A stretch of 64,000 bases of DNA from Telluria aromaticivorans (GTDB lineage Bacteria; Pseudomonadota; Gammaproteobacteria; Burkholderiales; Burkholderiaceae_D): NCBI RefSeq assembly GCF_013003915.1, contig NZ_JABAIV010000004.1:186001-250000 (forward strand), written 5' to 3'. The first letter of the stretch is position 1, and each line of letters begins with the position of its first letter. Positions 32,701-57,390 of the stretch are shown here, piece after piece. The notes under the pieces were generated by a model. It saw nothing but the letters and a program-made list of their open reading frames with translations. It was not told where the DNA came from and ran no database searches. The translations under genes and the position numbers were made by a program.

Positions 32701-32712
32701 TTTGTCTCCTCC

Positions 32713-34350: not shown

Positions 34351-34369
34351 TTGAGTTTCCGTTTGTTTC

Positions 34370-34476
34370 GTAGGGTGGGCGGCTTCGCCGCCCGCGCGTT
34401 CAAATCAGGCATGAACAGACGGTTCGTCGATTCATAGGTGAGTTGAACGCGCGGGCGGGAGACCCGCCCACCCTAC
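34370..34476. repeat. REPIN-like palindromic repeat, copy 6
   Basis: GTAGGGTGGGCGGC ... CGCGTTCAA and TTGAACGCGCGGGCGGG ... CCCACCCTAC. Both halves have CGCGCGG where other copies often have CGCGTGG. It sits between the two tandem TldD/TldE pairs, inside the presumed operon. Confidence 0.86.
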
Positions 34477-34482
34477 GGGTGC

Positions 34483-35817: not shown

Positions 35818-35831
35818 GAAGTGTCCTCGCC

Positions 35832-37466
35832 TCAGCCGATCTTGCGGGCGGTGTTGATCACGTTGATCCCGTTGAAGCGGGCCGTGCTCGAACCGTGGGA
35901 GACGATGCTGATCTGCGGCGGCTGTCCTTTGCCGTCGAAGAAGGAACCGCCCATGCGCCAGTCACGCTCGTCGCAGATCGCGCTGCAGGCGGTCCAGAAT
36001 TCCTGGGTATTGGCCTGGTAGGCGACGTCCTCCAGCATCGGGCCGATCTTGCCGTCCTTGATTTCATAGAACAGCTGGCCGCCGAACTGGAAGTTGTAGC
36101 GCTGCTGGTCGATCGAGAACGAGCCGTCGCCGACGATGTAGATGCCCTTCTTGATGTCCTTGACCATCTCGTCCGGGGTCAGCTTCTTCTTGCCGGCGGC
36201 CAGCGAGACGTTCGGCATGCGCTGGAACTGCACCGAGTTCCAGCTGTCGGCGTACGAGCAGCCGTGCGATTCTTTTTCGCCGATGATGTGGGCCTGGTCG
36301 CGCGTGGCCTGGTAGTTGACCAGGATACCGTCCTTGATGATGTCCCACTTCTTGGTCTTCACGCCTTCGTCGTCGTAACCGACGGCGCCGAGCGAGCCCG
36401 GGGTGACCTTGTCCGCATACAGGTTGACCATCGGATTACCGTACTTGAATTTCTTGGTTTCCCACTTGTCGAGCGTGGCGAAGCTGGTGCCGGCGTAGTT
36501 GGCTTCGTAGCCGAGCACGCGGTCCAGTTCCGTCGGGTGTCCAACGTTCTCGTGGATGGTCAGCCACAAATGTTCGGGCGACAGCATCAGGTCGTATTTG
36601 CCAGGCGTGACCGACTTGGCGGTCAGCTTCATCTTGGCGTCGCGGCCGGCGGCCTTCGCGTCTTCGATCAGGTCGTACGATCCGGTGTACAGGGTAGCGA
36701 CGCCGCCCGCGGCCTTGAGCTTGTGCTCCGGACGCGCATCCAGGTATTCATAGCCCATGCCGACCGGCGCGCCGAGACCCGAGCGCGAACGGAACTTGCC
36801 GGTGGTTTTATCCACGGCGGTGGCCTGGAACGGCGCCCACAGGCGGTGGACGTCCTGCTCGATGTAGGAGCCGTCGGTGGAAGCGAAGTACTTCTGCTGG
36901 TTCACCTGGAACAGCATCGAATTCATGAAGGTCGCGCCGCCGTCCATGCCGGCCTTGTTGGCGGCGATCAGCAGGTCGGCCTTTTCCTTGATCGGCACCG
37001 TGCGCCAGTCCTTCTTGATCGGCGTGGCCCAGGACACGTCGCCGACGCCCTTGACCGGTGCGAGGCGCACCGGTTCGGACTGCAGCTTGGCATTGGCCTT
37101 GGCGATGGCAACCGCCTGGCGCGCCGCGTTGGCGATGCCGTCGCTGCTCATGTCGGAAGTGGCGGCGAAGCCGTAGGCGCCGTTGGCGATCACGCGCACG
37201 CCGATGCCGGCCGACTCGGTGTTGGCCACGTTCTCGACGTTCAGGTCGCGGGTGGTGATGAACTGGTTCAGGTAGCGGCCGATGCGGATGTCGGCGTAGC
37301 TGGCGCCGGCCTTCGTGGCGGCGTTCAGCGCAACGTCGGCGAGCGCCTTCTTGGCGGCGGTCGGCATGCTGGTCAATAGCTCTTCAGCGGCGATCGCGCG
37401 GCTGAACGGGACCATGGTCGTGGCCAGGGCCAGGCTGCTGAAGTTTAGAAAGGTACGGCGTTCCAT
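35832..37466 (-). CDS. TldD-like metalloprotease with Tat signal peptide (copy A)
   Basis: A 544-residue catalytic subunit, first gene of the ten-gene operon. ERRTFLNFSSLALATTMVP followed by SRAIAA is a twin-arginine signal peptide, as in copy B. The zinc motif HENVGH is at 305-310, and the C-terminal region TACSAICDERDWRMGG keeps the presumed cysteine ligand. Alignment by eye with copy B is collinear from end to end, with the greatest difference in the signal peptide. The operon appears to be driven from the sigma54-type promoter at 37627-37642, giving a leader of about 150 nt. Confidence 0.9.
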   Translation of the reverse strand: MERRTFLNFSSLALATTMVPFSRAIAAEELLTSMPTAAKKALADVALNAATKAGASYADIRIGRYLNQFITTRDLNVENVANTESAGIGVRVIANGAYGFAATSDMSSDGIANAARQAVAIAKANAKLQSEPVRLAPVKGVGDVSWATPIKKDWRTVPIKEKADLLIAANKAGMDGGATFMNSMLFQVNQQKYFASTDGSYIEQDVHRLWAPFQATAVDKTTGKFRSRSGLGAPVGMGYEYLDARPEHKLKAAGGVATLYTGSYDLIEDAKAAGRDAKMKLTAKSVTPGKYDLMLSPEHLWLTIHENVGHPTELDRVLGYEANYAGTSFATLDKWETKKFKYGNPMVNLYADKVTPGSLGAVGYDDEGVKTKKWDIIKDGILVNYQATRDQAHIIGEKESHGCSYADSWNSVQFQRMPNVSLAAGKKKLTPDEMVKDIKKGIYIVGDGSFSIDQQRYNFQFGGQLFYEIKDGKIGPMLEDVAYQANTQEFWTACSAICDERDWRMGGSFFDGKGQPPQISIVSHGSSTARFNGINVINTARKIG

Positions 37467-38673: not shown

Positions 38674-38697
38674 TCCATCTGCAGTAAGCCGGATCAT

Positions 38698-38733
38698 GTT
38701 CACGGCCGGGAAGGCCCGCCTTCCTGGCCGTGA
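38698..38733 (+). terminator. Strong hairpin after methyltransferase gene
   Basis: TTCACGGCC and GGAAGG pair with CCTTCC and GGCCGTGAA around a CCCG loop, with one unpaired base in each arm: about 15 bp of stem. It is followed by a weak T-containing tract and lies between two rightward genes, so it is probably a terminator for the first. Confidence 0.6.
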
Positions 38734-38821
38734 AGATTCGTGTGTTTCCTTCGGCGGCGAGCGTGTATTCTGGCGGTTTGTACCCATCCAGATCGACCCG
38801 ATTGAGCCACCGAAGGAATTT

Positions 38822-40393
38822 ATGAAGATCGTCCGCCTCGCCGCCGCCGTGGCATTCGCCATGGCAGGCCTCGTCCACGCACAGGACACCACCCCACCGC
38901 CGGCACCGACGCCTGCGACGCCACCGTCACCGGCCACCGCGACCCCGTCCGCCACCACCCCGCCTGCCCTGCCGGCCGTCGAGAACTCGGTCGTCAAGAT
39001 CTTCGCCACCGTGCGCCGCCCGGACCCGTACAAGCCGTGGGCGAAGCAGTCCCCGGTCGACGTGACCGGCTCGGGCGTCATCATCGAGGGCAAGCGCATC
39101 CTGACCAATGCCCACGTGGTCGGCTATGCCAGCCAGGTCGAGGTGCAGGCCAGCCAGTCGGGCGACAAGGTGTCGGCCAAGGTGATCGCGCTCGCGCGCG
39201 GCCTCGACCTGGCGGTGCTGGAACTGGACGACGCATCCTTCTTCGACAAGCGCCCGGCGGTCCAGCGCGCGGCCGTGCTGCCGGACGTGCGTGAAGCGGT
39301 GTTCGCCTATGGCTATCCGGTCGGCGGCAATTCGCTCTCGACCACCCGCGGCATCGTCTCGCGCGTGGAATTCGTCGGCTACGGCTCGTTCAGCTCGGGC
39401 CTGCGCATCCAGATCGACGCGCCGATCAACCCCGGCAACAGCGGCGGCCCGGTGATCGCCGGCGACAAGATGATCGGCCTGGCCTTCTCGATGGCGGCCG
39501 GAGCGCAGAACATCGGCTACGTGATCCCGAACGAGGAGATCGAGCTGTTCCTGAAAGACGTCGCGGATGGCCGCTACGACGGCAAGCCGCTGCTGCACGA
39601 CAGCATCCAGACGCTGGAAAACCCGGCGCTGCGCCAGTACCTGAAACTCGACAAATCGGTGGAAGGCGCGGTGGTGCATCGCCCGTACAAGACGGATGCG
39701 AGCTGGCCGCTCAAGGAATGGGACATCGTGACCCATATCGGCGAGCATCCGATCGACAACCAGGGCATGGTGAAGCTGGGCTCGAACCTGCGGGTGCGCT
39801 TCCAGTACCGCATCCAGCAGGTGGCCAAGAACGGCAAGGTGCCGATGACCATCGTACGGGGCGGTAAACCGATGCGGGTTGAGGTACCAAGCAGCGGCCC
39901 GCGCCCGCTGCTGATCCCGGACCTGAACGGCGGCTACCCGTCCTACTTCGTGTATGGCCCGGCGGTGTTCACGCGCGCCACCAATGAATTCCTGTCTTTC
40001 CTGGTCTCGAGCGCTCCGGCGATGAACGCCTACAGCTTCAACGACAGCCCGCTGGTGACCCAGCGCGGCGATTCGCCGGATGCGGCGCGCGAAGAGCTGG
40101 TGGTGATCAGCAGCCCCTTCTTCCCGCACAAGCTGGTGAGCGGCTACAGCAACCGGTTTGGTTCGGTGGTCGATACGGTCAACGGCGTCAAGATCCGCAG
40201 CCTGGCGCACCTGGTGGCTACCTTGCGCGACCTGAAGGACGAGCATGTGGTGTTCAAGTTCGACCAGCGCTATGGCGAAACCATGATCCTGCCGCGCAAG
40301 GCGACGCTGGATGCGACCGATGCGATCCTGTCGGATAACGGGATTCGTACGCAGGGGTCGGAGGATATGATGAAGGTGTGGGGCGGGAAATAA
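38822..40393 (+). CDS. Secreted trypsin-like serine protease (DegP/DEG9-like) with PDZ domain
   Basis: A 523-residue periplasmic protease. After the signal peptide (MKIVRLAAAVAFAMAGLVHA) and a Pro/Thr-rich linker (about 22-50) comes the S1C protease domain with the triad His98 (TNAHVV), Asp129 (DLAVLEL) and Ser207 (NPGNSGGPV), then one or two PDZ-like regions. The layout resembles plant DEG9-type proteins more than DegP. The open frame begins at 38696, but only the ATG at 38822 gives a signal peptide. It probably degrades damaged envelope proteins. A REPIN-like repeat lies just after the stop. Confidence 0.9.
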   Translation: MKIVRLAAAVAFAMAGLVHAQDTTPPPAPTPATPPSPATATPSATTPPALPAVENSVVKIFATVRRPDPYKPWAKQSPVDVTGSGVIIEGKRILTNAHVVGYASQVEVQASQSGDKVSAKVIALARGLDLAVLELDDASFFDKRPAVQRAAVLPDVREAVFAYGYPVGGNSLSTTRGIVSRVEFVGYGSFSSGLRIQIDAPINPGNSGGPVIAGDKMIGLAFSMAAGAQNIGYVIPNEEIELFLKDVADGRYDGKPLLHDSIQTLENPALRQYLKLDKSVEGAVVHRPYKTDASWPLKEWDIVTHIGEHPIDNQGMVKLGSNLRVRFQYRIQQVAKNGKVPMTIVRGGKPMRVEVPSSGPRPLLIPDLNGGYPSYFVYGPAVFTRATNEFLSFLVSSAPAMNAYSFNDSPLVTQRGDSPDAAREELVVISSPFFPHKLVSGYSNRFGSVVDTVNGVKIRSLAHLVATLRDLKDEHVVFKFDQRYGETMILPRKATLDATDAILSDNGIRTQGSEDMMKVWGGK

Positions 40394-44252: not shown

Positions 44253-45899
44253 CTACTCTTGGGTTACCCATACCGGCGCGGACCACAGCACGTTGCCATC
44301 GTCCTGCGTGACCTTCGCATAATAAAAATGCTGGCCGGACGCCGGGGTGAACTTGGTGATGGCAGTCGACGACAGTTGCGTCACCGTCCCGCCGCGCATC
44401 GGCACACCCTCCATGATCGCGACCGCAGCCGCCTTCTTGCCCGAGGTAGAAGCGAAGTTCACTTTCAGCGTGAGGGGACCGCGGTTGGTGAAGCGTTCTC
44501 CCATCAGCTTGCCGTTGGCGGTAAAGACCAGCTGCGAGGTCTTGTCCATGGTCGCGAACACGCGCCGGGCCTTGAGCGCCGCCATGAAGCTCTCGCGCGT
44601 CAAGGCGGCCCCGTTGGGCAGCAGCACGCCGGTGCGGTTGGTGTAGGACGCGCCCCAATTGGCGCAGTGGTTGTCCTGGTTGGTGCTGAAGGCAAGGTGG
44701 TAACCGGCTTCCAGCAGGCGGTTGCAGGAATGCTCAAAATTGCTGCGGCGGGTTTCTGTTTCGGTATCGTTGGTCGAGAATGCGGTGCTGTTCATCACCT
44801 CGCACAGGGCCATCGCCTCGTCGCCGTCGGGCGTGTACCCGAGCGCTACGCCGTTCACGGCGAACTGTCCCTGCTGCGCGGGATGATTGAATTGCCCGAC
44901 CCAGCCCCGCTCGCGCATCCGCGTGTACAGCGCCGCGTAGTCATTACGTGGGCTCAGGGTGTCGGCCATCAGCTCGCCCTTGGCATTCTTTTCCCAGCCC
45001 AGCAGCTCGTCGCTGTTGAAGATATTGATGTGGCCACCATTGTTGATGACACCCCACTCCATGCCGTAGAGCGCGAGGAAGCCGGGCTTGGTGGCATTGA
45101 AAGCGGCGGCGCTGGCCAGGCCGGCCTTGTAGAGCGCCCTGGCGGCGGCCGGATCGCCATCGGCCGCGGTGCCGTCCGAGCCGTCGTACATGTGGTTGTG
45201 TTCCGACACCGCCAGCACGTCGAGGCCGCGTCCACGCGCATAGGCGAAGGCCGCCTCCGGGCCGTACTTCGACTTGAGCGGATCCTGCGCGCCCTTGCAC
45301 TCCGTGAGCGCGGCGCCGCCGTCGCTGTGGTTGCTCTGGCTGTGCAGGTTGGCCAGGTACACGGTGTAGGGCAGCGAACCGGTGGCCGGCGCCATGGCGG
45401 CCGGGTTGGCGGGATTTACCAGGTCGCGCACGCCGGGAAGCGGCGCAAACGCCGGCATCGATGGCGCATCGCGCGAGGCCCGGCTGCCGACGGCAATCTG
45501 CCATTCCTGCTCCACCAGCGACTCGTGGTCGCCGCGCAGGCCGGCGTGCAGGCGCAGCCGGTATAGCCCCGCAGGTGCGGGCGCCGTGCCGATACGGCCG
45601 TTCCAGGTGACCGACGCCGGCACCGCGGCCCCGGAAAACGCACGGCTGCCGCGCCAGCGTTGGGAGACGCGTCCTTGCGGAGTCACCAGTTCCAGCGTCC
45701 AGTCGACTGTCCCTGGCCGTTCCAGGCCGGGGTAGTGGAAGGACAGGCTGAAGGTCCGGCGCGCACTTGCGTCGGCCTGGAAAGGCGCGTGCAGGGTGGC
45801 TTCGAATTCCTTGTGCTCGACAGGCGCCGCGATAGCACTGCCGCAGCACAGGGCCAGCAGCAACGCACGGAGGGTGGGGGGCAGGAGTGTGGTTTTCAT
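44253..45899 (-). CDS. Secreted PHP-domain metallohydrolase (CehA/McbA-like)
   Basis: A 548-residue protein with a signal peptide (to about residue 25), a beta-sandwich N-terminal domain (about 30-140), then a PHP domain. The PHP domain has HSQSNHSDGG (His186, His191, Asp193), VLAVSEHNHMYDG and LEAGYHLAFSTNQDNH as metal-binding stretches. PHP proteins cleave phosphoesters; the related CehA/McbA enzymes hydrolyse carbaryl, though most relatives have unknown substrates. A C-terminal beta region (about 440-548) follows. No metal ligand appears lost. It lies 106 bp after the Tsx-like gene, same strand, and may be cotranscribed. Confidence 0.83.
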   Translation of the reverse strand: MKTTLLPPTLRALLLALCCGSAIAAPVEHKEFEATLHAPFQADASARRTFSLSFHYPGLERPGTVDWTLELVTPQGRVSQRWRGSRAFSGAAVPASVTWNGRIGTAPAPAGLYRLRLHAGLRGDHESLVEQEWQIAVGSRASRDAPSMPAFAPLPGVRDLVNPANPAAMAPATGSLPYTVYLANLHSQSNHSDGGAALTECKGAQDPLKSKYGPEAAFAYARGRGLDVLAVSEHNHMYDGSDGTAADGDPAAARALYKAGLASAAAFNATKPGFLALYGMEWGVINNGGHINIFNSDELLGWEKNAKGELMADTLSPRNDYAALYTRMRERGWVGQFNHPAQQGQFAVNGVALGYTPDGDEAMALCEVMNSTAFSTNDTETETRRSNFEHSCNRLLEAGYHLAFSTNQDNHCANWGASYTNRTGVLLPNGAALTRESFMAALKARRVFATMDKTSQLVFTANGKLMGERFTNRGPLTLKVNFASTSGKKAAAVAIMEGVPMRGGTVTQLSSTAITKFTPASGQHFYYAKVTQDDGNVLWSAPVWVTQE

Positions 45900-46004: not shown

Positions 46005-46862
46005 TCAGAAATGGACGTCTGCGCGCAGCATCGGCGTGCTGGCACGTTGCCCTGCCCCGCCCGTTGTCGCCCGCGAATTGCCGAACTTGTTGTTCCAGAA
46101 CTGGTAGCCGACGCCGACCCGGATGCGCTTTTTCGGGTAACCGAGGCGCGGCCCGATGTCATGCATCAGCGCCAGGTCGAGATTCGTCTCGGCGCTGGTC
46201 GGGGCGCCGGTTTCGTCGAGTCCCTTGGCGGCGATGACATTCAGGAAGCCTTCGAAGGACCACCCATCAAGCACCGGGATACCCCAGCTGGCGCCGAACA
46301 TCGGGTGGGTGTCATAGGTGTAGCGGCCACGGACATTGGCGATTGGCGGGAAGGGCCCGCTCGGCGCATTGCTCTCGCGCAGCCACAGGATGCTGGTGTT
46401 CAGGAAGCCCGGTACGTCCCACATCAGGGTCGGCCCTAGAACCAGCATGCGCTTGCGCGAGTTGTAGCCGACATCAATCTTGTGGTTGACATCGAAACCG
46501 GCCGTCAGGCCCACGCCCTTGACCTTGCCGAAGCGGATCTCGGAGCCGCGCAGCGCACCGAAGTCGAGCGTGTGGCGGTACAGCAGGTAGGCCTCGCGCG
46601 CGCCGCTGCTGCTGCCCAGCGAACGCGGGTCGGTGCGGTCGGATTTCAGCAGGTCGAGGTTGAGGTAATTGCTGCCGTACTTGTAGCCGCTGGCGTGGGT
46701 GAATGCGACCACGTGCTTCTTGATGTGCCCCGGGTTGAAGGGCTCGGCGAAGCGGGTGCCGTAGCGGTAGCTGACCGCATTGTCGCTCCAGTCCTGCGCG
46801 CCGGCCGGCACGCTGCAGCACAGCAGGGCAGCGCACGCCGCCGTCGTCAGTCTCTTGGTCAT
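46005..46862 (-). CDS. Tsx-like outer-membrane channel
   Basis: A 285-residue outer-membrane protein with signal peptide (MTKRLTTAACAALLCCSVPAGAQ) and a 12-strand-type barrel similar to the nucleoside channel Tsx family (DWSDNAVSYRYGTRFAEPF, GLGY-type periodic aromatics), ending with the aromatic VHF. It probably forms a specific small-solute pore. Its ATG overlaps the stop of the giant NdvB-like gene by four bases, so the two are translationally coupled and may be functionally linked, for example export or uptake of a glycan made or handled by the large protein. That link is an inference. Confidence 0.82.
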   Translation of the reverse strand: MTKRLTTAACAALLCCSVPAGAQDWSDNAVSYRYGTRFAEPFNPGHIKKHVVAFTHASGYKYGSNYLNLDLLKSDRTDPRSLGSSSGAREAYLLYRHTLDFGALRGSEIRFGKVKGVGLTAGFDVNHKIDVGYNSRKRMLVLGPTLMWDVPGFLNTSILWLRESNAPSGPFPPIANVRGRYTYDTHPMFGASWGIPVLDGWSFEGFLNVIAAKGLDETGAPTSAETNLDLALMHDIGPRLGYPKKRIRVGVGYQFWNNKFGNSRATTGGAGQRASTPMLRADVHF

Positions 46863-49800
46863 GTTCTCGATCCTGGCTGGTTGTCGTGATGGCCGGCCAT
46901 GGCATCGGCCGGCTTGCGTTCCACATACAGCTCGACCTGGTGTTCGCGCCCATCGTCGGCGAGCTCCAAGGTCGTCCCTCCCTGCGGCTCGCCGTCGAGC
47001 ACGAGCTGCTCGCCGACGCCGGCACGCCGCACCGTGACGAGATAATCCGTCCGGCCCGTGCGGTAGCGGAACCGGAAGCTGTCCCAGCTAGAGGGCAGCA
47101 GCGGCGCCAGTGTGACGCGGTCGACCGCGCGGCCAATGCCGAGCAGCGCGTCGGTCAGCAGCATGTAGGTCCAGCCGGCGCTTGCGGCATCCATCATGAA
47201 GTAAGGCGTGCCGGCGTAGCGCACGCATGCATCCGGGGCCGGGCCGATCGGGTTCAGGCTGCGCGCCAGTTCCCAGGCGCGCGTCGCCGCACCTTCGCCG
47301 GCCAGTGCCAGTGCGGTCCATGCGGCCATACGTCCGTCCTGCGTCCCGGCACCTGGGATGGTGCCCAGGGCTGTCCTGACGCGCTCAGGTTCTGCCCCGG
47401 CAATGGCCGCCCAGGCTTGCGTCCCGGTGGCGTCATCGCCGTCCGTGCCATAGGCGGCGCCATCCCAGCCGTGTTCTTCGGCCTGCGCCATCAAGGCCAG
47501 CGCGGCGCCGCGGCAGGTGGTGGCAAAACCGAAATCGGCGCGGCGGTCGGCCACCTCGGCGAAGCGTTGCAGCACGGTGGCGAGCAAGAAGGCCAGCCGC
47601 ACGCTCTCGGGCCGGCTTGCCGGATCCTGGTCGTCCTCGTGCATGCGGGCGTCCCGCAGTGGCAAGCCTTGGGCGCCGAAGCGCAGGCAGCCGCGCAGGC
47701 CATGCACGCAATACTGGTACAGGTCATCGCGCGCCAGGCGCGTGCCGCTCGACGGATCGCCGCCGGCCGGTTCGCGCAGCACGCCGTAGTCGCCGGTCAC
47801 ATTGACATAGCGGTGCAGCGCAAAGGGCAGCCACAGGAAGTCCTCGACCTGGGCGAGGGTAGCGCCGATGTCCTCGCGCGCCGTCCGCAGCAGTGCCTCG
47901 CGCAGCGGCGCCGGGTTGCCATGCACCGCGGCCATGGCGCCCTGCAGCTGCTGCGCGGGCGTGCCGCCCATGGCGCCGGCCAACGCTCCATAGGGCAGCC
48001 AGCCATTGGCGAAGATGTCGAAGGCAGCATCTGGCGTCTCGACGCGCACGCTGCCGAGCAGGCCGTCCCAGAATCCGTGCAGCTGGCGCAGCGCCAGTGC
48101 CGCTCCCTTGGCGCCGCCATGCTGCTGCACCACCCGGCTGGCCGCCAGGCTGTCGGGACTGGCCACGCCGAGCAGGAAGACCAGTTCGGTTTCGGCGCCC
48201 GGCTGCAGCTCGACCATCACCTGCAGTGCGGCACACGGATCGAGCGCAGCGCCGAGCGTTCCCGCAAGTCCGCTGCGCTCCAGCGCGGCCGGCCGCGCCA
48301 GGCTGCGGTGGCGCCCGACGAATTCGCGCCGGTCGGCGGTATACGCCACCTGCCCTGCCTCGACATGGAAGAAGCCGACCCGGTCGCCAAAGCCGCTACC
48401 GAAAGCATTGCGGGCGAACAGCGCGCCACTGGCGACGTCGATGCCGGTGACGACCTGCAGCCCGGGCGGCAGGCCGGCGTCATCCATCAGCCACTGCACA
48501 TAGCCGGTGACCGACAGGCGCCGCGCCGCACTGGAGGCGTTGCGCAGGGTGAGTACGGAATACTTGAGGGCTTCCCCGGCCGCCACGAAACAGCGCAGGC
48601 TCGAGCCGATGCCGTGGGCCTGGTGGTCGAACAGCGTGTAGCCGAAGCCGTGCCGCGTGAGGTAAGGCTGGCCGGATGGCATCGGCCACGGGGTCGGCGA
48701 CCATGCCGCGCCGCTGTCCTCGTCGCGCAAATAGAAGGCTTCGCCGCCGTCCGTCGTCAGGCGCAGCGTGCGGCGGCCGCACCAGGTGCCGCCCCTGCCG
48801 CTGGCTGCCAGCGCGGTACCGAAGCCGGCGTTGGACAGTTCGTTTTCCCACGACGCCGGCGCGGGCTCGCTGCTGCGGATGAGATATTCGCGTCCATCTG
48901 CCGAAAAGCCGCCCATGCCGTTGTCGTATTGGAGCGGTTCATCCATAGCAGGCGCCGGGTCGACGGTCCAGGGGTCGATTTCTTCGCGCGCCGCGAACGG
49001 CGCCGGCAGGGCCGGCAGGGCGGGCGCCGCGCGGCGCAGCTGGTCGGCCAGCGCGCCGCGTTCACCCAGCAGCAGCACCTGCGCGGCCGAGCGCAGCAGG
49101 ATGCGGTCTTCCTGCGGAACGTCTTCGAGCAAGAACACGTGGATGCCTTCCTGTGCGCCTGGCGCCAGGCCGGCGACCTCGTCGCGCATCGCGCGGCTGT
49201 CGCACAAGACCAGCAGATCGGCGCCGAGACCGCGGGCATCCCAGTAGGCATGCGCCTGCAAAGTGTCCCGTACCAGGCCGCTCTCCTGGCCCGGCACCAG
49301 CACCACCAGCGGGCGGCCGGCGCCGACGCCATAAGGCAGCAGGCCGGCGCGACTGCGCACGTTGCGCTCGATCACGCCGCCATCGGCGCGCAGGCCGGGC
49401 ACCGGATCGAGCAGGCAGCCGGCCAGGCGGTTGTAGATCTGGGCCTGGGCTTCACCCAGGCCTGCGCGGCGCAGGAAGGCCTGGCCGTGGGTCCATGCAG
49501 CATCGATTGCTCCCGCCACCACCTGCGGATCGAGGTGGCGCAGCGCCAGTTCGCGCGCCGCGGCGGGCGTGGCGGCCGCACCCAGCACCAGGTCGATGCT
49601 CACCTCCTGCCCGGGCGCCAGGGTGATCGTGCGGCGGATCGCCAGCGCCGGCGCAGGTGGCGCCGGCTCCAGCGGCGGCAGCGCGCCAAGCGGGTCGAGG
49701 CAGGTGCTGCTGTAGGCCGGCGCGCCGGCTTCCCCGCGCACTGCCAGCATGTGCAGTACGGCCGGTGCACCCAGGCCGAAAGAGCACAGCATTGCTTGCG

Positions 49801-52800
49801 ACACGCCGTCGATCCGGACCGGCGGCACCGGATCGTCCTGCGCAGCGCCAGGGGACAGCCCGGGGAACGCCAGCACGACGTGGCTCGTCACTTCCAGCGT
49901 GCGCGGCGCAGCGAGCGTATTGCGGATATGGACCCGGCGCAGTTCGACGTCCTCGGTTGGGGCGACGACCACGTCGCTCAGGATGGACAGGCCGCGTTCT
50001 TCGCGCCGGAAAGCTGCGCGCCCTTCGGCAAAGACGGCTTCATAGCGTTCCGGCTCGCCGACGGCGGGCGCCAGGGTGGCCGACCAGGTGTCGCCGGAAT
50101 CGGTATCGCGCAGCACGCAGGCCAGGCCTCCGCTCCCGCCGAGCGGGTCGGGCTGCCAACGCGTGAGCGGCACCCCACCCCAGGCGCTATAGCCGGTACC
50201 ATCGCTCGTCACCATCACGTGATAACGGCCGTTCGACAGCAGCTGCAGCTCCGGCATGGCGCTGCCCGACGCGGGACTGTCGACGACCCGGCCGCTGGCC
50301 GGTCCGGCCTGGCGCGCGGCGGCGGCGTACGGCGCGGGACGCGAGGCGCCGCTGGACGGCAGCGCTTCCTGCAGCAGCGGCAGGGCGGCGCGCAGTTCTG
50401 GATCGGCAGCGAAGCGGCGCTGCATCGGGGCGTCCTGCAGCAACTGCAGCAACGCGAGCAGGCCCATGCCCTGGTGACGCGCGGCCACCGTGCGCACCAC
50501 GTGGCGCTGCTCGCCGTGCGGCAGGCGGCCCGGCGTATGGTCGACGGCGTCGACGAAGCCGTATTCGCCGCTCAATCCTTCGTGCGCCATGCGTTCGAGG
50601 TTGCTGAGTGCCACGCCGGGCGCCACCGGCAGCGCCAGCATGGCCGCGTATGGCGCGGCGACCGGTTCGGATTCAAGACCGCGCCGCAGGGCCGCCGCCG
50701 GCACGCCAAAGCGGCGGAACTGGAAGCGCAGCATGGCATCGACCGCATTACAGGCCGATTCCGAAAAGCCCCAGGGCATGTTGTGGAGGCGCCCATGGGC
50801 GACCTGGGCCCGAACGGCGGCGCGCCCGGCATGGTCGAGCAGCGACTCGCGCCAGGATGGCATCAGCAAGGGTGGGCCAAGGTAATCCGACAAGGCGCCC
50901 GAGCGCGACAGCAGCAACTGCTCGGCGTCGGCAACGCGCATCGGGCGCCCGAGCTTCCACCAATGCTGTTGCGGCAGCTGGCCCTGGGCTACCGCGATGA
51001 AGCTGGCCATGCAGGCTTCGGAGGCCAGCAGGTCGCAGCTGTCGGCATCCAGCCGGTTTTCGCGGATGTGGCAACCGGCGGACAGTAATCCGGTGTCATG
51101 GTCGAGCAGTGCCGCGAAATCCATCGTGCCCAGCGTACGCGCCTGCCCGGCCAGCCGTGCAGCATGTGCCAGCAGCGCCCCTGCCCGGTCGCGCCCTTCG
51201 CGCACCAGGCGCGCCAGCCCGGGCTGGGTGGCGGCCGCCGGGTCGATGGCGGCGAGTTCTCGCAGGCTCGGGATGCGCGTCAGGCTGGCATCGAACACGT
51301 ATTCCTGCACCGCGCGCATCCACGGCGCCAGTGCCAGGAGGTCGTCCTGCACTGCGTGGCATTGGGCCGCGAGGCGCGCCGACCAGTTGCGCAAGGCCTC
51401 GTCGCCGGACTGTACAAGCGCGGTGTCGAGCGCATCGGCCGCGTCGGCCACGTGGCGCAGGCATTCGCTCAGGCCGGGCAAGGTATCGGCTGCGCGGCAG
51501 CGTTTCGGATCGAGTGCCCCCCACACGGCGGCCACCCGCTCGCGCACCTTCGACGGCTGCCCGGCCGCCAGTTCGTCCACTACATGCAGGGCGGCGCGGA
51601 TCCCGTCCAGCGCCTGCGGTCCGCAAACCGGCGTGTCCGGCAGTTCGTCCAGGCCCACTGCCAGCGTGCGCAGGGCCAGCGCCAGCCAGCCGCTGTCCGC
51701 CGTCGACACGAAGGCCGGTTCGCAGGGTGCGAGCGTGGCATTGTCGTAGGACGCAAGGTAATGGCCGTTCCAGCGTTCCAGCAGGGCCATCGACGCCAGC
51801 GAGGCGTCGAGCCGCCCGAGCAACTCGCCTGGCGGCAGGAAACCGAAGTCGCGCGCCGCCAGCGTGGCTAGCTGCCCGAGCGCCATGCCGCCCAGGGTGG
51901 TGCGTCCGTCCACCAGTGGATGCGGGTGCTCCTGCACGCTTTCCGGCGGGAGCCAGTTATTGGCCGGGCCGGCGTGGTCTTCGAAGAAGCTCCAGCTGCG
52001 GCGCGCCAGCCGCTGCACAAACGCTTGCCGCGCGGCCGGCAGCCGCGGCGGGCGCTGGCGCACCGGCAGGCTGGTCCACCATGCCAGCGCCGGCGACAGG
52101 AACCACACCAGCAACACCGGCGCCGCAGTGAACAGCGAATAGGGATTGGCAAAGGTCAGCAGCAGGGCCACCGACACCGCCAGCACCGGGGAGATCCACA
52201 TCGTGATCCAGTTGTTGGCGATCTCGCGGGCGGGGCGCGACAGCGCCGGCAGGCGCCACTCGAGCTGGCGCCGGCGCGACACGTGGCGGCGCCATACCGC
52301 GCGCGCTACCCCGTCGGCCTGGCACCAGGCCGCATGCGGCAGGAAACTGGCCGCCAGCGCACCGCGCACCAGCGCCGCGCGGGCGCCGCGCGCCCAGGCA
52401 TCGAGATGCTGGCGCCATGGCGCGTCGTGCGGGCGGTCGGCCAGCGCCACCAGGCTGCCGGCCAGCGCGGGCAGGAAGAACACCGACAGCACGGCGCCCA
52501 TCCAGAACGCGGGCGCCGCGAGCGCAGTCCAGCACAGCACCAGCAGGAGCACCAGCGCCGGGGCCACCAGGCTGTCGCGCAGCGCGTCGAACAGCCGCCA
52601 GCGGTAGGCCGCCGTCATCGGGTTGGCTTCGGGCTTTCCGCCGGCCTTGCCGACCACACGGCGCACCCAGCCCGCCGACTGCCAGGCCGCACGCACCGTG
52701 CGGTGGCGCCGTACGGCGTGCTCGCCGTAGTTGTCGGGGAAGGCTTCCTCCAGCCGTACGTCGCAGTCGAACGCCGCGTGCAGGCAGCCCTCGTCGACCG

Positions 52801-55090
52801 CTCCCGGCTTGAGCAGCGCATCGTCCGGCAGGCGCTCGCGCAGCACCCGTTCGTAGATGTCGACGTCATAGATTGCAGCCCAGCCGAACATGCCCTGGGT
52901 GTCGCATTCGTGCCCGGCCAGCGCCGCTGCCCAGGTGCCCCGGGCCCCGGTCCACAGCCGCTGGTAGCGGCAGGCCTGCCTGCCCGGCAGCGCTCCGCCG
53001 ATGGCCGGGCGCAGCATGCCGTGGCCCTTGAGGATACGGCTGCCGTCGGCGCCAAGCGCCGGCTGGTTGAGCGGGTGGGCCATGGCGCCGACCAGCGCCC
53101 TGCCCGCGTCGCGCGGCAGGTCGATGGCGGCATCGAGGGTGATCACATAGCGCACTTCCGCCAGGCCGGCGGTGTTTCCGGCGCTGCAGGCGAAACGCTC
53201 GCGTCCCGTGCCCGCCAGATAGGCATTCAGGTCGGCGAGCTGGCCGCGGCGGCGCGCCCGGCCGATCCACGCATGCTCGCCGCTGTTCCACATGCGCGGG
53301 CGCTGCAGCAGCAGGAAGGGTTCAATGCGCTGCGTGCTGGCCGCCGGCTGGCCGTCTTCGTCCAGGGTGGTAAAGGTGTGGCGCTGCGCATGCTTGCGGT
53401 TGAGGGCGTCGATCGCCTCGACCGCGCGTGCGACCAGCCCAGCATCACCGCGCAGCGCCTCGGCTTCGGCGTCGTGCAGGTCGGCCAGCAGGCAGAAACG
53501 CAGGCGCGGGTCGCGGTTCGCGAGATAGCGCACTTCAAGGTCGCGGCACAGCGCATCGACTTGCGCGCTGGTTCTCAGGCGCGCGGAGACCGCCACCAGC
53601 GCTTGGGCATGGTCCGGGATGCCGGTGCTGAAATCCATGCGCGGCGTGGCGGGAGGCCGCGCAAGCCAGGTGGCCATCATGTCGACCAGGGCATCGGCCA
53701 GCTGGCTGGCCCCCAGCAGCGCCAGCAGCCCGACGGCCGCCTGCAGCACCAGCCCGGCGCCGCCCTGGCGCGCGCACACGACGGCGGCGATCGCAAACAG
53801 CAGCGTCAGCACGCCGGTGGCGCCGATGCGCAGCGCGAGCGGCATCTGGGTGACACGCCGGCGCAAGCCTGCAGCCAGGCCGGGGCGCGGTTGCAGGCGC
53901 GCCTCCAGCGCAGCGGTACCCGGGCCGCACAGGTAGTAACCGATATGGCGGTGGCGCGCATCCAGGCCGCCCTCGGCAGGCGCACGGTGCACACCGGCCA
54001 GCGCCAGCGCTTCATTCGCCACCTCTGGTTCCAGCCGCTTCGTGCGGCGCGCCAGCTCTTCGATGCTGCGGCGGTACAGGTCGCGCGTCGGGCCGTCCAT
54101 GTGCGGGTAGCTGCCATCGGGGTCGGTGCGCAGCCTTGCCTCGATGGGGCTGAGCTCTTCGAGCACCGCGCGCCAGTCGATCCCGCCGAGCAGGCGCAGG
54201 CTGGCCAGGCAGTGGGCGGCGCGGATGCCGTCGGCGGCCAGCGCGCCGCGTTCGTCCTGTACCTGCTGGGCGATGCTGGAATTGTCGTCTGCCAGTCTCG
54301 CATCGATCCAGGCCAGCGCCTGCGCCAGCGCGCCGCCCTGTCCTTGCAGCCGGCGCGCGAGTTCCGCAACGAAGCTGCTGCCCATCGGCTGTATGGCGCG
54401 CGCCATGTCGGCCACCAGCAGGATCAGGTCACCCGAGCGCTGCTCGGCGGTTTCGACCATGCGCGTGGCCCAGCCGCCGGCCAGTGCGCGCTCGCGGCAG
54501 GCGCGCTCGCTGCGCACGGCGATGCCGCGCAGGCTGCCCAGCAGCGCCAGGCGCAAGGCGGCAGGCAGCAGGCGCAGCTCGGCCAGCAGCAGGGGGGCTT
54601 CTTCCTGATAGGCCGCGAGGAAGCGCACCAGGCTGTCTCGTTCGATGCGGCCGGCGCCCTGCGCCACTGCCTCATGCGCCAGGGCCTGCAGGCGTGCGAC
54701 GGCGGGCTGTCCCAGGCAGGGCAGCACGCTGTCGTCATGCAGCAGCTGGCCGCGGGCCAGCCGTAGCTGGGCGTCGATCAGTGGGGTGTGGTCGAGGATC
54801 GCAGAGGCGGCGGCCGGCAGCTCGCTGCCACCCTGGCGCGCACGGTCGAGCGCCGTGCAGGCAGCGTCGAAGGCATCGCCTTGCTCGGCCAGCAGGACGC
54901 GCAGGCCGGGCGCGCCATTGCCGCCGGCCAGCCGGTGGCGGGACGCGAGCACGCGTCCGTGCGCGGCCAGCTGCGCGGCACTCATCGGCGCATTGATCGG
55001 CACATCTAGCGGCACGTCAGCGTCGGCGCGCCCGGTACCAGCTTGCTGCGCGGACGCGGATTCGGCCATCGGGTTCTTCTCCAGGTTCAA
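46859..55090 (-). CDS. Giant NdvB-like protein (GT84/glycoamylase/GH94 architecture) with altered catalytic motifs
   Basis: A 2743-residue membrane protein collinear with cyclic beta-1,2-glucan synthase: N-terminal region (1-410), helices at about 417-470, a GT84-like domain (RYLANRDPRLRF, RPRMWNSGEHAWIG, HPLNQPALG), helices at about 830-880 and 965-1003, a glycoamylase-like domain (SWSFFEDHAGPANNWLPP, ASFIAVAQG, MPWGFSES) and two GH94-like modules. Catalytic motifs are changed. The GT84 motif LDADTQLPRD reads LDAAIDLPRD (653-655), RHRWxRGDWQ reads RHRTVRAAWQ, and the GH94 GDWNDG motif is missing where GLPLRDARMHEDDQDP stands (about 2475-2490). The frame is unbroken and codon use matches its neighbours. 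It may be a pseudoenzyme or an enzyme with a new activity. Confidence 0.8.
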   Translation of the reverse strand: MNLEKNPMAESASAQQAGTGRADADVPLDVPINAPMSAAQLAAHGRVLASRHRLAGGNGAPGLRVLLAEQGDAFDAACTALDRARQGGSELPAAASAILDHTPLIDAQLRLARGQLLHDDSVLPCLGQPAVARLQALAHEAVAQGAGRIERDSLVRFLAAYQEEAPLLLAELRLLPAALRLALLGSLRGIAVRSERACRERALAGGWATRMVETAEQRSGDLILLVADMARAIQPMGSSFVAELARRLQGQGGALAQALAWIDARLADDNSSIAQQVQDERGALAADGIRAAHCLASLRLLGGIDWRAVLEELSPIEARLRTDPDGSYPHMDGPTRDLYRRSIEELARRTKRLEPEVANEALALAGVHRAPAEGGLDARHRHIGYYLCGPGTAALEARLQPRPGLAAGLRRRVTQMPLALRIGATGVLTLLFAIAAVVCARQGGAGLVLQAAVGLLALLGASQLADALVDMMATWLARPPATPRMDFSTGIPDHAQALVAVSARLRTSAQVDALCRDLEVRYLANRDPRLRFCLLADLHDAEAEALRGDAGLVARAVEAIDALNRKHAQRHTFTTLDEDGQPAASTQRIEPFLLLQRPRMWNSGEHAWIGRARRRGQLADLNAYLAGTGRERFACSAGNTAGLAEVRYVITLDAAIDLPRDAGRALVGAMAHPLNQPALGADGSRILKGHGMLRPAIGGALPGRQACRYQRLWTGARGTWAAALAGHECDTQGMFGWAAIYDVDIYERVLRERLPDDALLKPGAVDEGCLHAAFDCDVRLEEAFPDNYGEHAVRRHRTVRAAWQSAGWVRRVVGKAGGKPEANPMTAAYRWRLFDALRDSLVAPALVLLLVLCWTALAAPAFWMGAVLSVFFLPALAGSLVALADRPHDAPWRQHLDAWARGARAALVRGALAASFLPHAAWCQADGVARAVWRRHVSRRRQLEWRLPALSRPAREIANNWITMWISPVLAVSVALLLTFANPYSLFTAAPVLLVWFLSPALAWWTSLPVRQRPPRLPAARQAFVQRLARRSWSFFEDHAGPANNWLPPESVQEHPHPLVDGRTTLGGMALGQLATLAARDFGFLPPGELLGRLDASLASMALLERWNGHYLASYDNATLAPCEPAFVSTADSGWLALALRTLAVGLDELPDTPVCGPQALDGIRAALHVVDELAAGQPSKVRERVAAVWGALDPKRCRAADTLPGLSECLRHVADAADALDTALVQSGDEALRNWSARLAAQCHAVQDDLLALAPWMRAVQEYVFDASLTRIPSLRELAAIDPAAATQPGLARLVREGRDRAGALLAHAARLAGQARTLGTMDFAALLDHDTGLLSAGCHIRENRLDADSCDLLASEACMASFIAVAQGQLPQQHWWKLGRPMRVADAEQLLLSRSGALSDYLGPPLLMPSWRESLLDHAGRAAVRAQVAHGRLHNMPWGFSESACNAVDAMLRFQFRRFGVPAAALRRGLESEPVAAPYAAMLALPVAPGVALSNLERMAHEGLSGEYGFVDAVDHTPGRLPHGEQRHVVRTVAARHQGMGLLALLQLLQDAPMQRRFAADPELRAALPLLQEALPSSGASRPAPYAAAARQAGPASGRVVDSPASGSAMPELQLLSNGRYHVMVTSDGTGYSAWGGVPLTRWQPDPLGGSGGLACVLRDTDSGDTWSATLAPAVGEPERYEAVFAEGRAAFRREERGLSILSDVVVAPTEDVELRRVHIRNTLAAPRTLEVTSHVVLAFPGLSPGAAQDDPVPPVRIDGVSQAMLCSFGLGAPAVLHMLAVRGEAGAPAYSSTCLDPLGALPPLEPAPPAPALAIRRTITLAPGQEVSIDLVLGAAATPAAARELALRHLDPQVVAGAIDAAWTHGQAFLRRAGLGEAQAQIYNRLAGCLLDPVPGLRADGGVIERNVRSRAGLLPYGVGAGRPLVVLVPGQESGLVRDTLQAHAYWDARGLGADLLVLCDSRAMRDEVAGLAPGAQEGIHVFLLEDVPQEDRILLRSAAQVLLLGERGALADQLRRAAPALPALPAPFAAREEIDPWTVDPAPAMDEPLQYDNGMGGFSADGREYLIRSSEPAPASWENELSNAGFGTALAASGRGGTWCGRRTLRLTTDGGEAFYLRDEDSGAAWSPTPWPMPSGQPYLTRHGFGYTLFDHQAHGIGSSLRCFVAAGEALKYSVLTLRNASSAARRLSVTGYVQWLMDDAGLPPGLQVVTGIDVASGALFARNAFGSGFGDRVGFFHVEAGQVAYTADRREFVGRHRSLARPAALERSGLAGTLGAALDPCAALQVMVELQPGAETELVFLLGVASPDSLAASRVVQQHGGAKGAALALRQLHGFWDGLLGSVRVETPDAAFDIFANGWLPYGALAGAMGGTPAQQLQGAMAAVHGNPAPLREALLRTAREDIGATLAQVEDFLWLPFALHRYVNVTGDYGVLREPAGGDPSSGTRLARDDLYQYCVHGLRGCLRFGAQGLPLRDARMHEDDQDPASRPESVRLAFLLATVLQRFAEVADRRADFGFATTCRGAALALMAQAEEHGWDGAAYGTDGDDATGTQAWAAIAGAEPERVRTALGTIPGAGTQDGRMAAWTALALAGEGAATRAWELARSLNPIGPAPDACVRYAGTPYFMMDAASAGWTYMLLTDALLGIGRAVDRVTLAPLLPSSWDSFRFRYRTGRTDYLVTVRRAGVGEQLVLDGEPQGGTTLELADDGREHQVELYVERKPADAMAGHHDNQPGSRT

Positions 55091-55304: not shown

Positions 55305-57242
55305 TCAGCCGGCCAGCGCCAGGCCGCCCGCCACGTGCCAGGCCTGGGCATGGCCCAGCTGGCGCAACAGGCGTGCCGCCCGCGCGCTGCGGTTGCCGCT
55401 GCGGCACATGAAGACCAGCGGACGAGGTTCGCCGTCGCGCAGCCACGTCGCGGCCTGTCCGGCCAGCTGCGACAGCGGCACATGGTGGGCCGCACGGCCA
55501 TGCAGGTGAGCGGCGCCGGCGGCGTGCTCGGGCAACTCGCGCACGTCGACCAGCAGCGCATCTGGATGGGCATCCAGGTAGGCATGCGCGGCAGCGGGAT
55601 CGAGGTGCATGCCGTCGTCGGGCAGCGGCTCGGCGCCCGGGCGCGACACCGCCGGTTCGCCGATGCGGTGGCAGCGCAGGGCCAGGGTGGCCAGCGTGGC
55701 GTCATTGGGCATGGCGCCGAAGACGAAGCGCACGGCGTCCGGGGGCAGGCTCGCGCCTTCCGGACGGCCAAGCAGGAAGGCATCGCCGGCCTTGAGCAGC
55801 AGGTCCGGGCCGAGCGCCACGGCCTCGGGCGCGGCACCTGGCGCGACATCCATCAATTCGCACAGGGCGTCGGCGCCGCCGGCGCCATGGCTGGTGTCGA
55901 AACAGGCCAGCAGCCGGCAACCGCGCGCGCGCAGGTCGGCAGCGATGCGGGGCGCCAGCGCGGCCGGCGGATCGATGGCGATGCAGTCGCGGCCTTCGGC
56001 ATCGAACAGCAGCCAGCCGCTCGCGCCGCCCGACTCGAGCTGCTCCAGCCCGGCCGGCGGATTGGGGGCCGCCAGCGCCTGGCCGCAGCGCAGGATGCGC
56101 GTACAGGCGTCGTCGATGAAGGCATCGTCCACCAGCGGACCGAAGGACATCCGCACCGCCGAGGCGCTGCGCCCGGCCGGCACGCCCATCGCGTCGAGCA
56201 CATAGCTGGGCGCGGCCCGGGCGGCCGAACAGGCCGAGCCCGCGCTGACGCGCACGCCGGCGGCATCGAACAAATCGAGCAGCTCCTTGCTGCTGCGATT
56301 CGGCACCGAGAAATTCAGGGTAGTTGGCAGCGCATGTTCGAGCGGTGCGTTGAAGACGACGCCGGGGAAGGCGTCAACCAGCGCGCCGGCCAGCCGGTCG
56401 CGGCATGCCAGCAGTTCGGCGTGGGTGCGAAAGGTACCGCCCTCTTCCAGCGCGGACAGCACCGCGCCGAAGCCTGCGATGCCGGCCATGTTCTCGGTGC
56501 CGGAGCGCTGCCCGCTTTCCTGGCCGCCGCCGCACATCAGCGCCGTGTAAGGCGCGCCTTCGCGCACATAGAGCAGGCCGATGCCTTTCGGCGCATACAG
56601 CTTGTGGCCCGAAAATGGCGCGTAGTCGATGCGCGTGGTGTCGAGCGCCAGCGGCAGCTTGCCGAGCGCCTGCACGCAATCGACCATCCATAGCGCCGGA
56701 CTGGCCGTCTCACGCAATACGGCGGCGATGCCATCGAGGCTTGAGACGATCCCGGTCTCGTTGTTGGCCGCCATGGTGCACACGAAGGCCGCACGCGGCG
56801 CCATTTCGCGCAGCAGGTCCAGGCGATGGCGCCCGTCGGCATCGACCGGCAAGGCGCGCAGTTCCAGGCCGGTTCCCAGCAAGCGGTTCCAGTGCGCCAG
56901 GCTTTCCGGCACCGCCTTGTGCTCGGTGGCGCCATACACCAGCAGGTCGCCGCAAGTCTCGCCACGCAGCCGGCGCTCGCGCACCGCGCACAGCGCCGAC
57001 AGCACGGCGGTCTGGATGCCTTCGGTGGCCCCACTCGTAAACAGCACCCTGCCCTTTGCCGCACCCAGCACGCGGCGCGCCGATGCACGGGCCGCATCGA
57101 GCAAGGCCTTGGCGCGCAAGCCGCTGGCGTGGCTGCTGCTCGGGTTGCCGAAACAGGCCCCCATTGCAGCGTTGGCGGCTGCGGCAGCCGCCGGCAGCAC
57201 CGGCGAAGTGGCATTGGCGTCGAGGTAGAGTTCGCTGTTCAT
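55305..57242 (-). CDS. Cysteine desulfurase fused to MBL-like remnant and rhodanese domain
   Basis: A 645-residue cytosolic fusion. Residues 1 to about 385 are an IscS/NifS-type aminotransferase V domain: Lys214 in SGHKLYAPKG holds PLP, and Cys338 in SAGSACSAA would carry the persulfide. Residues about 400-530 look like a reduced metallo-beta-lactamase fold (ACFDTSHGAGGADALCEL where the THxHxDH zinc motif would be). Residues about 545-645 are a rhodanese with the active loop CRSGNRS. Such a protein could free sulfur from cysteine and pass it to a sulfurtransferase in one chain. I chose ATG 57240-57242; a TTG 12 bp upstream is the alternative. It diverges from an Lrp/AsnC gene. Confidence 0.85.
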   Translation of the reverse strand: MNSELYLDANATSPVLPAAAAAANAAMGACFGNPSSSHASGLRAKALLDAARASARRVLGAAKGRVLFTSGATEGIQTAVLSALCAVRERRLRGETCGDLLVYGATEHKAVPESLAHWNRLLGTGLELRALPVDADGRHRLDLLREMAPRAAFVCTMAANNETGIVSSLDGIAAVLRETASPALWMVDCVQALGKLPLALDTTRIDYAPFSGHKLYAPKGIGLLYVREGAPYTALMCGGGQESGQRSGTENMAGIAGFGAVLSALEEGGTFRTHAELLACRDRLAGALVDAFPGVVFNAPLEHALPTTLNFSVPNRSSKELLDLFDAAGVRVSAGSACSAARAAPSYVLDAMGVPAGRSASAVRMSFGPLVDDAFIDDACTRILRCGQALAAPNPPAGLEQLESGGASGWLLFDAEGRDCIAIDPPAALAPRIAADLRARGCRLLACFDTSHGAGGADALCELMDVAPGAAPEAVALGPDLLLKAGDAFLLGRPEGASLPPDAVRFVFGAMPNDATLATLALRCHRIGEPAVSRPGAEPLPDDGMHLDPAAAHAYLDAHPDALLVDVRELPEHAAGAAHLHGRAAHHVPLSQLAGQAATWLRDGEPRPLVFMCRSGNRSARAARLLRQLGHAQAWHVAGGLALAG

Positions 57243-57390
57243 AAAGAAATACAAAAAGGTAATTAGTTGCTTCGGATCGTGTTATTGTTAGTGAATATGT
57301 TACGGAGTTGACCCGGTAAAGATATACCAATTTTTCTGAAATATTGCGTACTATTGGCATATCTATTCTCCATATATCTTCATTTGGAAA
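57243..57390. promoter_or_regulatory. AT-rich divergent promoter region with likely Lrp/AsnC sites
   Basis: The 148 bp between the leftward fusion gene and the rightward Lrp/AsnC gene are much richer in A and T than the window average, as expected for a region holding two promoters and Lrp-type sites. I do not assign exact -35/-10 boxes. Confidence 0.5.

Follow-up and report, generated by a model that had tools for sequence, protein, structure and literature searches.

The closest described counterpart of the protein studied here is the cyclic beta-1,2-glucan synthase (Cgs) of A. tumefaciens, with structures 8rf0, 8rf9 and 8rfe (PMC10901819). The accessible part of that paper reports that a D624A/D626A/D739A protein showed no glycosylation at Y694, the glucan-primer residue, and that Y694A abolished growth in an osmotic assay. 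The second described system is the GH189 domain of Thermoanaerobacter italicus (8wy1; PMC10834661), whose numbering is marked Ti below; in the accessible text of that source, D446, the general base of TfSGL, occupies the position of H1536 (Ti). A third precedent is E. coli OpgH, a membrane glucosyltransferase reported, in the accessible part of PMC3723540, as a nutrient-dependent cell-size regulator.

Our window, the whole 64,000-nucleotide stretch of DNA that was analysed, encodes a very large Cgs homologue, hereafter the giant. It shares with A. tumefaciens Cgs near-full-length collinearity, all domains, the membrane region and a predicted fold that superposes, but it lacks D626, D739, Y694, W774, D2393, GVRT and GDWNDG, and its cyclase helper residues are changed. 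With the T. italicus GH189 domain it has the fold and both catalytic Glu in common; it differs in a His replaced by Arg, a neighbouring Glu replaced by Asp and Tyr replaced by Cys, and its acid/base is variable in sister proteins. A literature search, with most subscription journals outside its coverage, found no description of a degenerate giant.

Domains and active sites of the giant

The gene starts at a TTG with GAGGA 5 bases to its 5' side, and its stop shares an ATGA overlap with the start of the next gene. Against A. tumefaciens Cgs (8rf9/8rf0) the product aligned in four collinear stretches covering residues 79–2695 (E ~1e-281). The sequence-only reading had taken the chain to be collinear with cyclic beta-1,2-glucan synthase and the frame to be intact; both hold, the whole being one open frame. 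Functional residues were taken from the accessible parts of PMC10901819 and PMC10834661 and placed by counting along PDB alignments. The gene and its parts are as follows.

46859-55090, minus strand: giant NdvB-like/Cgs open reading frame, 2743 aa, TTG start
53951..55090, minus strand: N-terminal scaffold domain, residues 1-380 (border approximate), collinear with 8rf9/8rf0
53024..53650, minus strand: GT84 nucleotide-binding half, residues 481-689; D537, R597 and D653 kept
53123..53134, minus strand: DAAI, residues 653-656, the DxD motif without its second Asp (D626 in A. tumefaciens)
52682..53023, minus strand: GT84 acceptor/catalytic half, residues 690-803; primer loop without Tyr, D739 replaced by G763
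52679..52708, minus strand: RHRTVRAAWQ, residues 795-804; equivalents of R773 and R776 kept, W774, G777 and D778 lost
50321..52060, minus strand: CY / GH189 cyclase domain, residues 1011-1590; E1358 and E1444 kept
46862..50320, minus strand: GP1-RFL-GP2-GP3 / GH94 half, residues 1591-2743; D2393 replaced by Q2380, GDWNDG replaced

Pfam recognised two GH94 supersandwich stretches and a glucoamylase-like cyclase; the GH94 catalytic match was weak, at 44 bits compared with 411 for an intact Massilia relative. The NTD-TM-GT84-CY-GH94 layout matches that of the canonical synthase, as modelled for residues 400–2740 and by sequence for the NTD.

Several residues of GT84 are kept, in A. tumefaciens numbering D527 (D537 in the giant), R586 (R597), D624 (D653), R773 and R776. 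Lost are D626 (now Ala), the catalytic base D739 (now Gly) and W774, the Trp of the RW motif (now Thr). The loop of the primer Y694 is shortened, and no Tyr occurs in residues 711–739, a lack found in 22 of 26 fully degenerate proteins. Three motif changes had been called from the letters alone, of DADT to DAAI, of RHRWxRGDWQ to RHRTVRAAWQ and of YNWYDT to LASYDN. The first appears identically in our alignment, the second was located at residues 795–804 and the third is correct; the absence of the base, with Gly at 763, and of the primer Tyr goes beyond that earlier list.

Losses were unevenly spread over GT84. At least 24 of the 26 degenerate proteins kept 34 of the 51 reference-invariant columns of the nucleotide-binding half, compared with 8 of 44 in the acceptor half, where 18 were lost in all 26 (Fisher p 3.3e-6 for 34/51 vs 8/44, a figure that takes the columns as independent, which they are not, and partly reflects a single loop deletion). 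Held-out relatives (n=62) retained the two halves about equally, at 0.960 and 0.978, respectively. Five other groups with a changed GT showed an asymmetry in the same direction. In the 60-tip tree described below, no loss was counted for D527 or R586, one each for D624 and R776, and two for R773. Retention within GT84 favours the nucleotide-binding half.

The earlier statement that the known catalytic motifs had been lost stands for GT84 and for most GH94 motifs; it was too broad for GH189, whose catalytic Glu pair, the acid/base E1358 and the nucleophile E1444, is present. The helper residues are altered, with D1402 in place of E1400 (Ti) and R1538 in place of H1536 (Ti), so that one of two active-site His is kept, and Tyr has become Cys at 1352 and 1447, beside the catalytic Glu. 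Among the 26 fully degenerate proteins the acid/base Glu was replaced in 10 (by D, S, N, A, G or R) and the nucleophile in five (by P or Q), and the position of H1536 (Ti) held Arg in 22, Pro in two and His in two. E1444 was kept in 12/12 members of the giant's subclade. We considered and rejected a GH162-like beta-1,2-glucanase: the position of H1536 (Ti), where its general-base Asp would lie, is Arg in the giant.

At columns 1352, 1432 and 1447, Tyr residues near the catalytic Glu have become Cys, His and Cys in 26/26 fully degenerate proteins. At columns 1402 and 1539, likewise in 26/26, an Asp is fixed and a His conserved. Together, the Cys1352, His1432, Cys1447, Asp1402 and His1539 columns might form a new site that binds a metal or another ligand.

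In the GH94 half, D2393 has become Q2380 and the GVRT/HWW region is lost. GDWNDG had been called absent; the motif is indeed replaced, though one Asp, D2486, falls at the general-acid position of GH94 within otherwise vanished surroundings. The HPPxGxGVRTxxSDD region had been described as shortened, and the alignment has the HWW..GVRT region shortened.

Two AlphaFold models of the giant had pLDDT 86.4 and 85.6, from 40 and 36 aligned sequences, intact relatives included. The models superposed on 8rf9 over 1078 residues at 2.5 A (Z 53.6), on the cyclase 8wy1_B over 548 residues at rmsd 2.1 (Z 61.0), and, for the GH94 half, on 8rfe_A over 1071 residues at rmsd 4.3 (Z 37.9). By alignment and predicted structure, the giant is a protein that keeps the homologous fold with the catalytic residues of GT84 and GH94 lost.

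Locus, relatives and order of change

Three neighbouring genes were used in comparing loci.

55305..57254, minus strand: cysteine desulfurase-like + rhodanese fusion, upstream neighbour; synteny marker, near 46/46 other genus giants
46005..46862, minus strand: beta-barrel outer-membrane-like protein, 285 aa, downstream; weak Pfam match below cut-off, ATGA overlap
44253..45899, minus strand: CehA/McbA family metallohydrolase, downstream; synteny marker, in 29/46 fetched stretches of other genus giants

Cysteine desulfurase-like, Lrp-like, periplasmic-binding-protein and DUF885 genes adjoin 46/46 other genus giants and 0/7 outgroup giants. These upstream neighbours are shared whether the giant is intact, partly lost or fully lost in its sites, and their presence at 46/46 loci indicates that intact and degenerate forms are orthologous. 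Intact Massilia CGS of ∼45–46% identity to the giant (G011, G012, G021, G027, G048) lie at the same syntenic locus; in these and in L101 and L103 all scored catalytic residues are intact, unlike in the giant. The outer-membrane gene was found near 31/46 other genus giants. We rejected it as an obligate partner, since it was missing near the other 15/46 and present at 9/10 sites that have no giant.

The GH94 supersandwich was found in 51/62 genus genomes. For the 11 without a GH94 domain the site was fetched, and in 10 of them no giant lay between the same neighbours (tblastn, 1e-6). The other, G017 (L173:5024-9817), has a CGS form of 1598 residues whose last domain is the cyclase, the GH94 half being absent; its D626, D739 and RW motif are intact, its Y694 loop is shortened with Y694 itself lost, and its H1536 is Arg.

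Other genes in the window include four consecutive TldD/PmbA-like metallopeptidase genes (31363-37466, minus strand), whose alternation of TldD-like and PmbA-like members resembles a duplicated two-gene unit, and an HtrA/DegP-like serine protease gene with a PDZ domain (38696-40393, plus strand), ∼6 kb past the giant's end.

We collected named relatives by searching with two short patterns drawn from the degenerate set and took the best 80 of 332. As had been proposed as a check, homologues with the same changes exist: these best 80 of 332 include 18 degenerate Massilia proteins. Named carriers of the degenerate form are M. yuzhufengensis and M. alkalitolerans (L090 and L091). The other 62 are 60 from outside Massilia and two named Massilia. 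All 18 scored sites were intact in 57/57 non-degenerate relatives that span them, 55 from outside Massilia, again among the best 80 of 332; five of the 62 held-out relatives are cut by contig ends and fall outside this count, their visible sites being intact. In the same best 80 of 332, intact relatives from outside Massilia range from Proteobacteria to Planctomycetota and Elusimicrobia. Relatives with up to 73% identity to the giant bear the name Massilia.

A second, canonical ndvB in the genome had been another proposed check. Profile searches with PF17167, PF06165 and PF10091, the last of which would also catch a GP-less form, returned the giant as the sole match to the three domain families. 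The opgG family (PF04349) was absent from 61/62 genus genomes, the giant's included, and OpgG was rejected as a replacement, the single match, in G023, being partial at 88 model positions. Genus genomes without a working CGS may therefore have no osmoregulated periplasmic glucans from either known route. The exporter profile TIGR01192 gave matches in 62/62 genomes and 14/14 controls, none above the cut-off.

For the order of change we aligned 54 proteins, 47 genus giants and seven outgroup giants, leaving out G044 and G054 (contig ends), G037 (broken) and G101 (a probable duplicate of L097, which was used). The FastTree tree had 60 tips, 51 of them Massilia. D626, Y694 or D739 of the GT was changed in 39/60 tips, all 39 within Massilia; for some of these the change at the base is just Asp to Glu. 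A count that allows no regain gives ∼7 independent GT losses on this one FastTree topology. Every one of the 39 GT-compromised tips was also changed in at least one of four cyclase-pocket residues. Five tips had a changed cyclase pocket and an intact GT, and none had the reverse. With no tip changed in the GT alone and five changed in the cyclase alone, the cyclase pocket probably changes first and the transferase after.

The five giants with a changed cyclase and an intact GT are L078, L068, L075, L065 and L069 (in G045, G035, G022, G052 and G043). Going by their residues, they might make linear beta-1,2-glucan.

Constraint on degenerate giants

Columns invariant in 12 references numbered 677, and 198 of these were fully kept in all 26 fully degenerate proteins; the N-terminal scaffold accounts for 20 kept of its 68. 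At 46 positions the 26 proteins have all become fixed for a residue that none of the 12 references has.

Rates of change were estimated as NG86 dN/dS, without correction for the high GC. Ten pairs changed in all three domains gave 0.085–0.326, a further pair changed in GT and CY gave 0.216, and three canonical pairs gave 0.194–0.378. In 10/10 degenerate pairs the giant's value was above that of every neighbour gene measured (neighbours, 0.02–0.26). Relative to the cysteine desulfurase gene, the ratio was 1.07–2.09 in the ten degenerate pairs compared with 0.67–0.90 in the three canonical pairs. Clade-wide medians were 0.373 and 0.452 in two degenerate groups, compared with 0.322 in the canonical one. 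Faster evolution than the neighbours, together with the higher clade medians, leads us to read the purifying constraint on degenerate giants, as these sequence comparisons estimate it, as real but partly relaxed.

These figures bear on an alternative that we think possible though somewhat unlikely, namely that the gene has become less important and is slowly eroding, its frame staying open because GC-rich genes rarely gain stops and toxic misfolding is avoided. The graded erosion of catalytic sites in all three domains fits such decay. So do the rates, with degenerate giants faster than all measured neighbours in 10/10 pairs and canonical ones below the cysteine desulfurase gene in 3/3, and so does the lack of a giant in 10/62 genus genomes, with a GP-less form in one more; the 10/62 also mark whatever role there is as dispensable. 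On the other side, groups that degenerated independently have dN/dS values far under 1, the lowest being 0.085, and the 198/677 columns persist even in the 26 most degenerate proteins. Only one broken copy was found in the 51 GH94-bearing genus genomes (G037, maybe an assembly effect), with two more cut by contig ends.

Stop codons were also counted. Each of nine compared pairs had none, compared with an expected average of 6.5–15.6 under drift, modelled by letting the first two codon positions change as the third does; this test is biased, the alignment having taken in long-open-frame giants only, and in two of the nine pairs the lowest of 200 simulations likewise had no stop. Open frames by themselves are weak evidence, because this GC-rich DNA also has antisense frames that stay open for thousands of bases.

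One such frame lies opposite the giant (46886-51088, plus strand, 1400 aa), with similar ones in L079 (3235 aa), L074, L077 and L059. The long antisense frames are probably not genes but a by-product of high GC content at third codon positions (0.85 here).

The broken giant of G037 (L045) is split by more than 10 frame changes, and two of its neighbour genes match in part. We rejected it as a control for decay, since with these features assembly indels are possible.

Possible roles and meaning

We think it slightly better than an even chance that the giant, embedded in the membrane, is a pseudo-synthase under selection, one that makes no glucan and has been retained for some role other than catalysis. 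This reading draws on the sequence, on orthology, on dN/dS below 1 and on the predicted fold; that no glucan is made we infer. The sequence-only reading had offered a selected pseudoenzyme as one of two options, and much of that survives: GT84 and GH94 residues are lost, the frame is open and dN/dS is well below 1. The word 'selected' is to be taken as likely, constraint being relaxed relative to the neighbours. The surviving GH189 Glu pair also counts against the reading, since the protein may have some cyclase or glucanase activity left. Its other option, a new enzyme class, found no positive support, the acid/base Glu being variable even in close sisters.

Under the pseudo-synthase reading, the protein would fold as the full membrane-embedded NTD-TM-GT84-CY-GH94 machine. 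As the base, the primer Tyr, the RW Trp and one of the metal-binding Asp residues, the second, are gone, it would neither start nor extend a glucan chain; this is expected from the A. tumefaciens mutants in the accessible part of PMC10901819. The acceptor side is gone but the UDP side (D527, R586, D624, R773 and R776) is still there, and for that reason the protein may still bind UDP or UDP-glucose.

An altered enzyme is a distinctly unlikely alternative. It would be a GH189-derived, membrane-anchored transglycosylase or glucanase, or would perform new chemistry through Cys1352, Cys1447, His1432, Asp1402 and His2484. E1358 and E1444 are both present in the giant, E1444 throughout its subclade (12/12), the cyclase fold is intact by prediction, and the 46 newly fixed positions in 26/26 proteins could be expected of such an enzyme. 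Those positions may, however, go back to a common ancestor, the stem branch being long (0.424), and the proposed active site varies, with the acid/base replaced in 10/26, the nucleophile in 5/26 and the first active-site His being Arg or Pro in 24/26. Nor is there a known source of beta-1,2-glucan for it to act on, opgG being absent from the genome and the GT compromised. Least probable is a working GT that still makes glucan, perhaps of another linkage, with metal site and primer relocated to other residues: D624, D527, R773 and R776 remain, an Asp lies two residues past the lost DxD Asp (DAAID) and D766 three residues from the lost base, but the DAAID Asp is variable in the clade (DAAVG, DAATG, DANAG), residues 711–739 contain no Tyr in 22/26 proteins, and, in the accessible part of PMC10901819, the A. 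tumefaciens D624A/D626A/D739A protein was unglycosylated at Y694 and growth in the osmotic assay was abolished by Y694A.

Returning to the pseudo-synthase, we would give about one chance in three to a more specific proposal from its residue pattern, in which UDP or UDP-glucose is bound and the protein serves, anchored in the membrane, as a scaffold or as a regulator responding to nutrients. E. coli OpgH, as a membrane glucosyltransferase, provides a precedent for a non-synthetic, nutrient-linked role. OpgH is nonetheless an active enzyme of another family, and the likeness drawn here is one of role. Nutrient regulation by OpgH is linked to UDP-glucose. A broader proposal, which we consider unlikely as it stands, is that Massilia CGS has repeatedly been converted, cyclase first and transferase afterwards, into a giant, membrane-embedded, UDP-sugar-responsive scaffold that produces no sugar, a convergent birth of one kind of pseudoenzyme.

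Catalytic sites that all examined full-length relatives from outside the genus have intact, very distant bacteria included, have been lost several times within this one genus, with the 2,700-codon frame kept. Glucan production should not be assumed for Massilia giants of the CGS family. The genus also offers a natural series, of intact, cyclase-only changed, transferase changed, all changed, GP-less and absent forms, with which roles of the synthase besides synthesis can be probed. If the role kept is nucleotide-sugar sensing or envelope scaffolding, the synthase would have a non-synthetic function worth keeping by itself.
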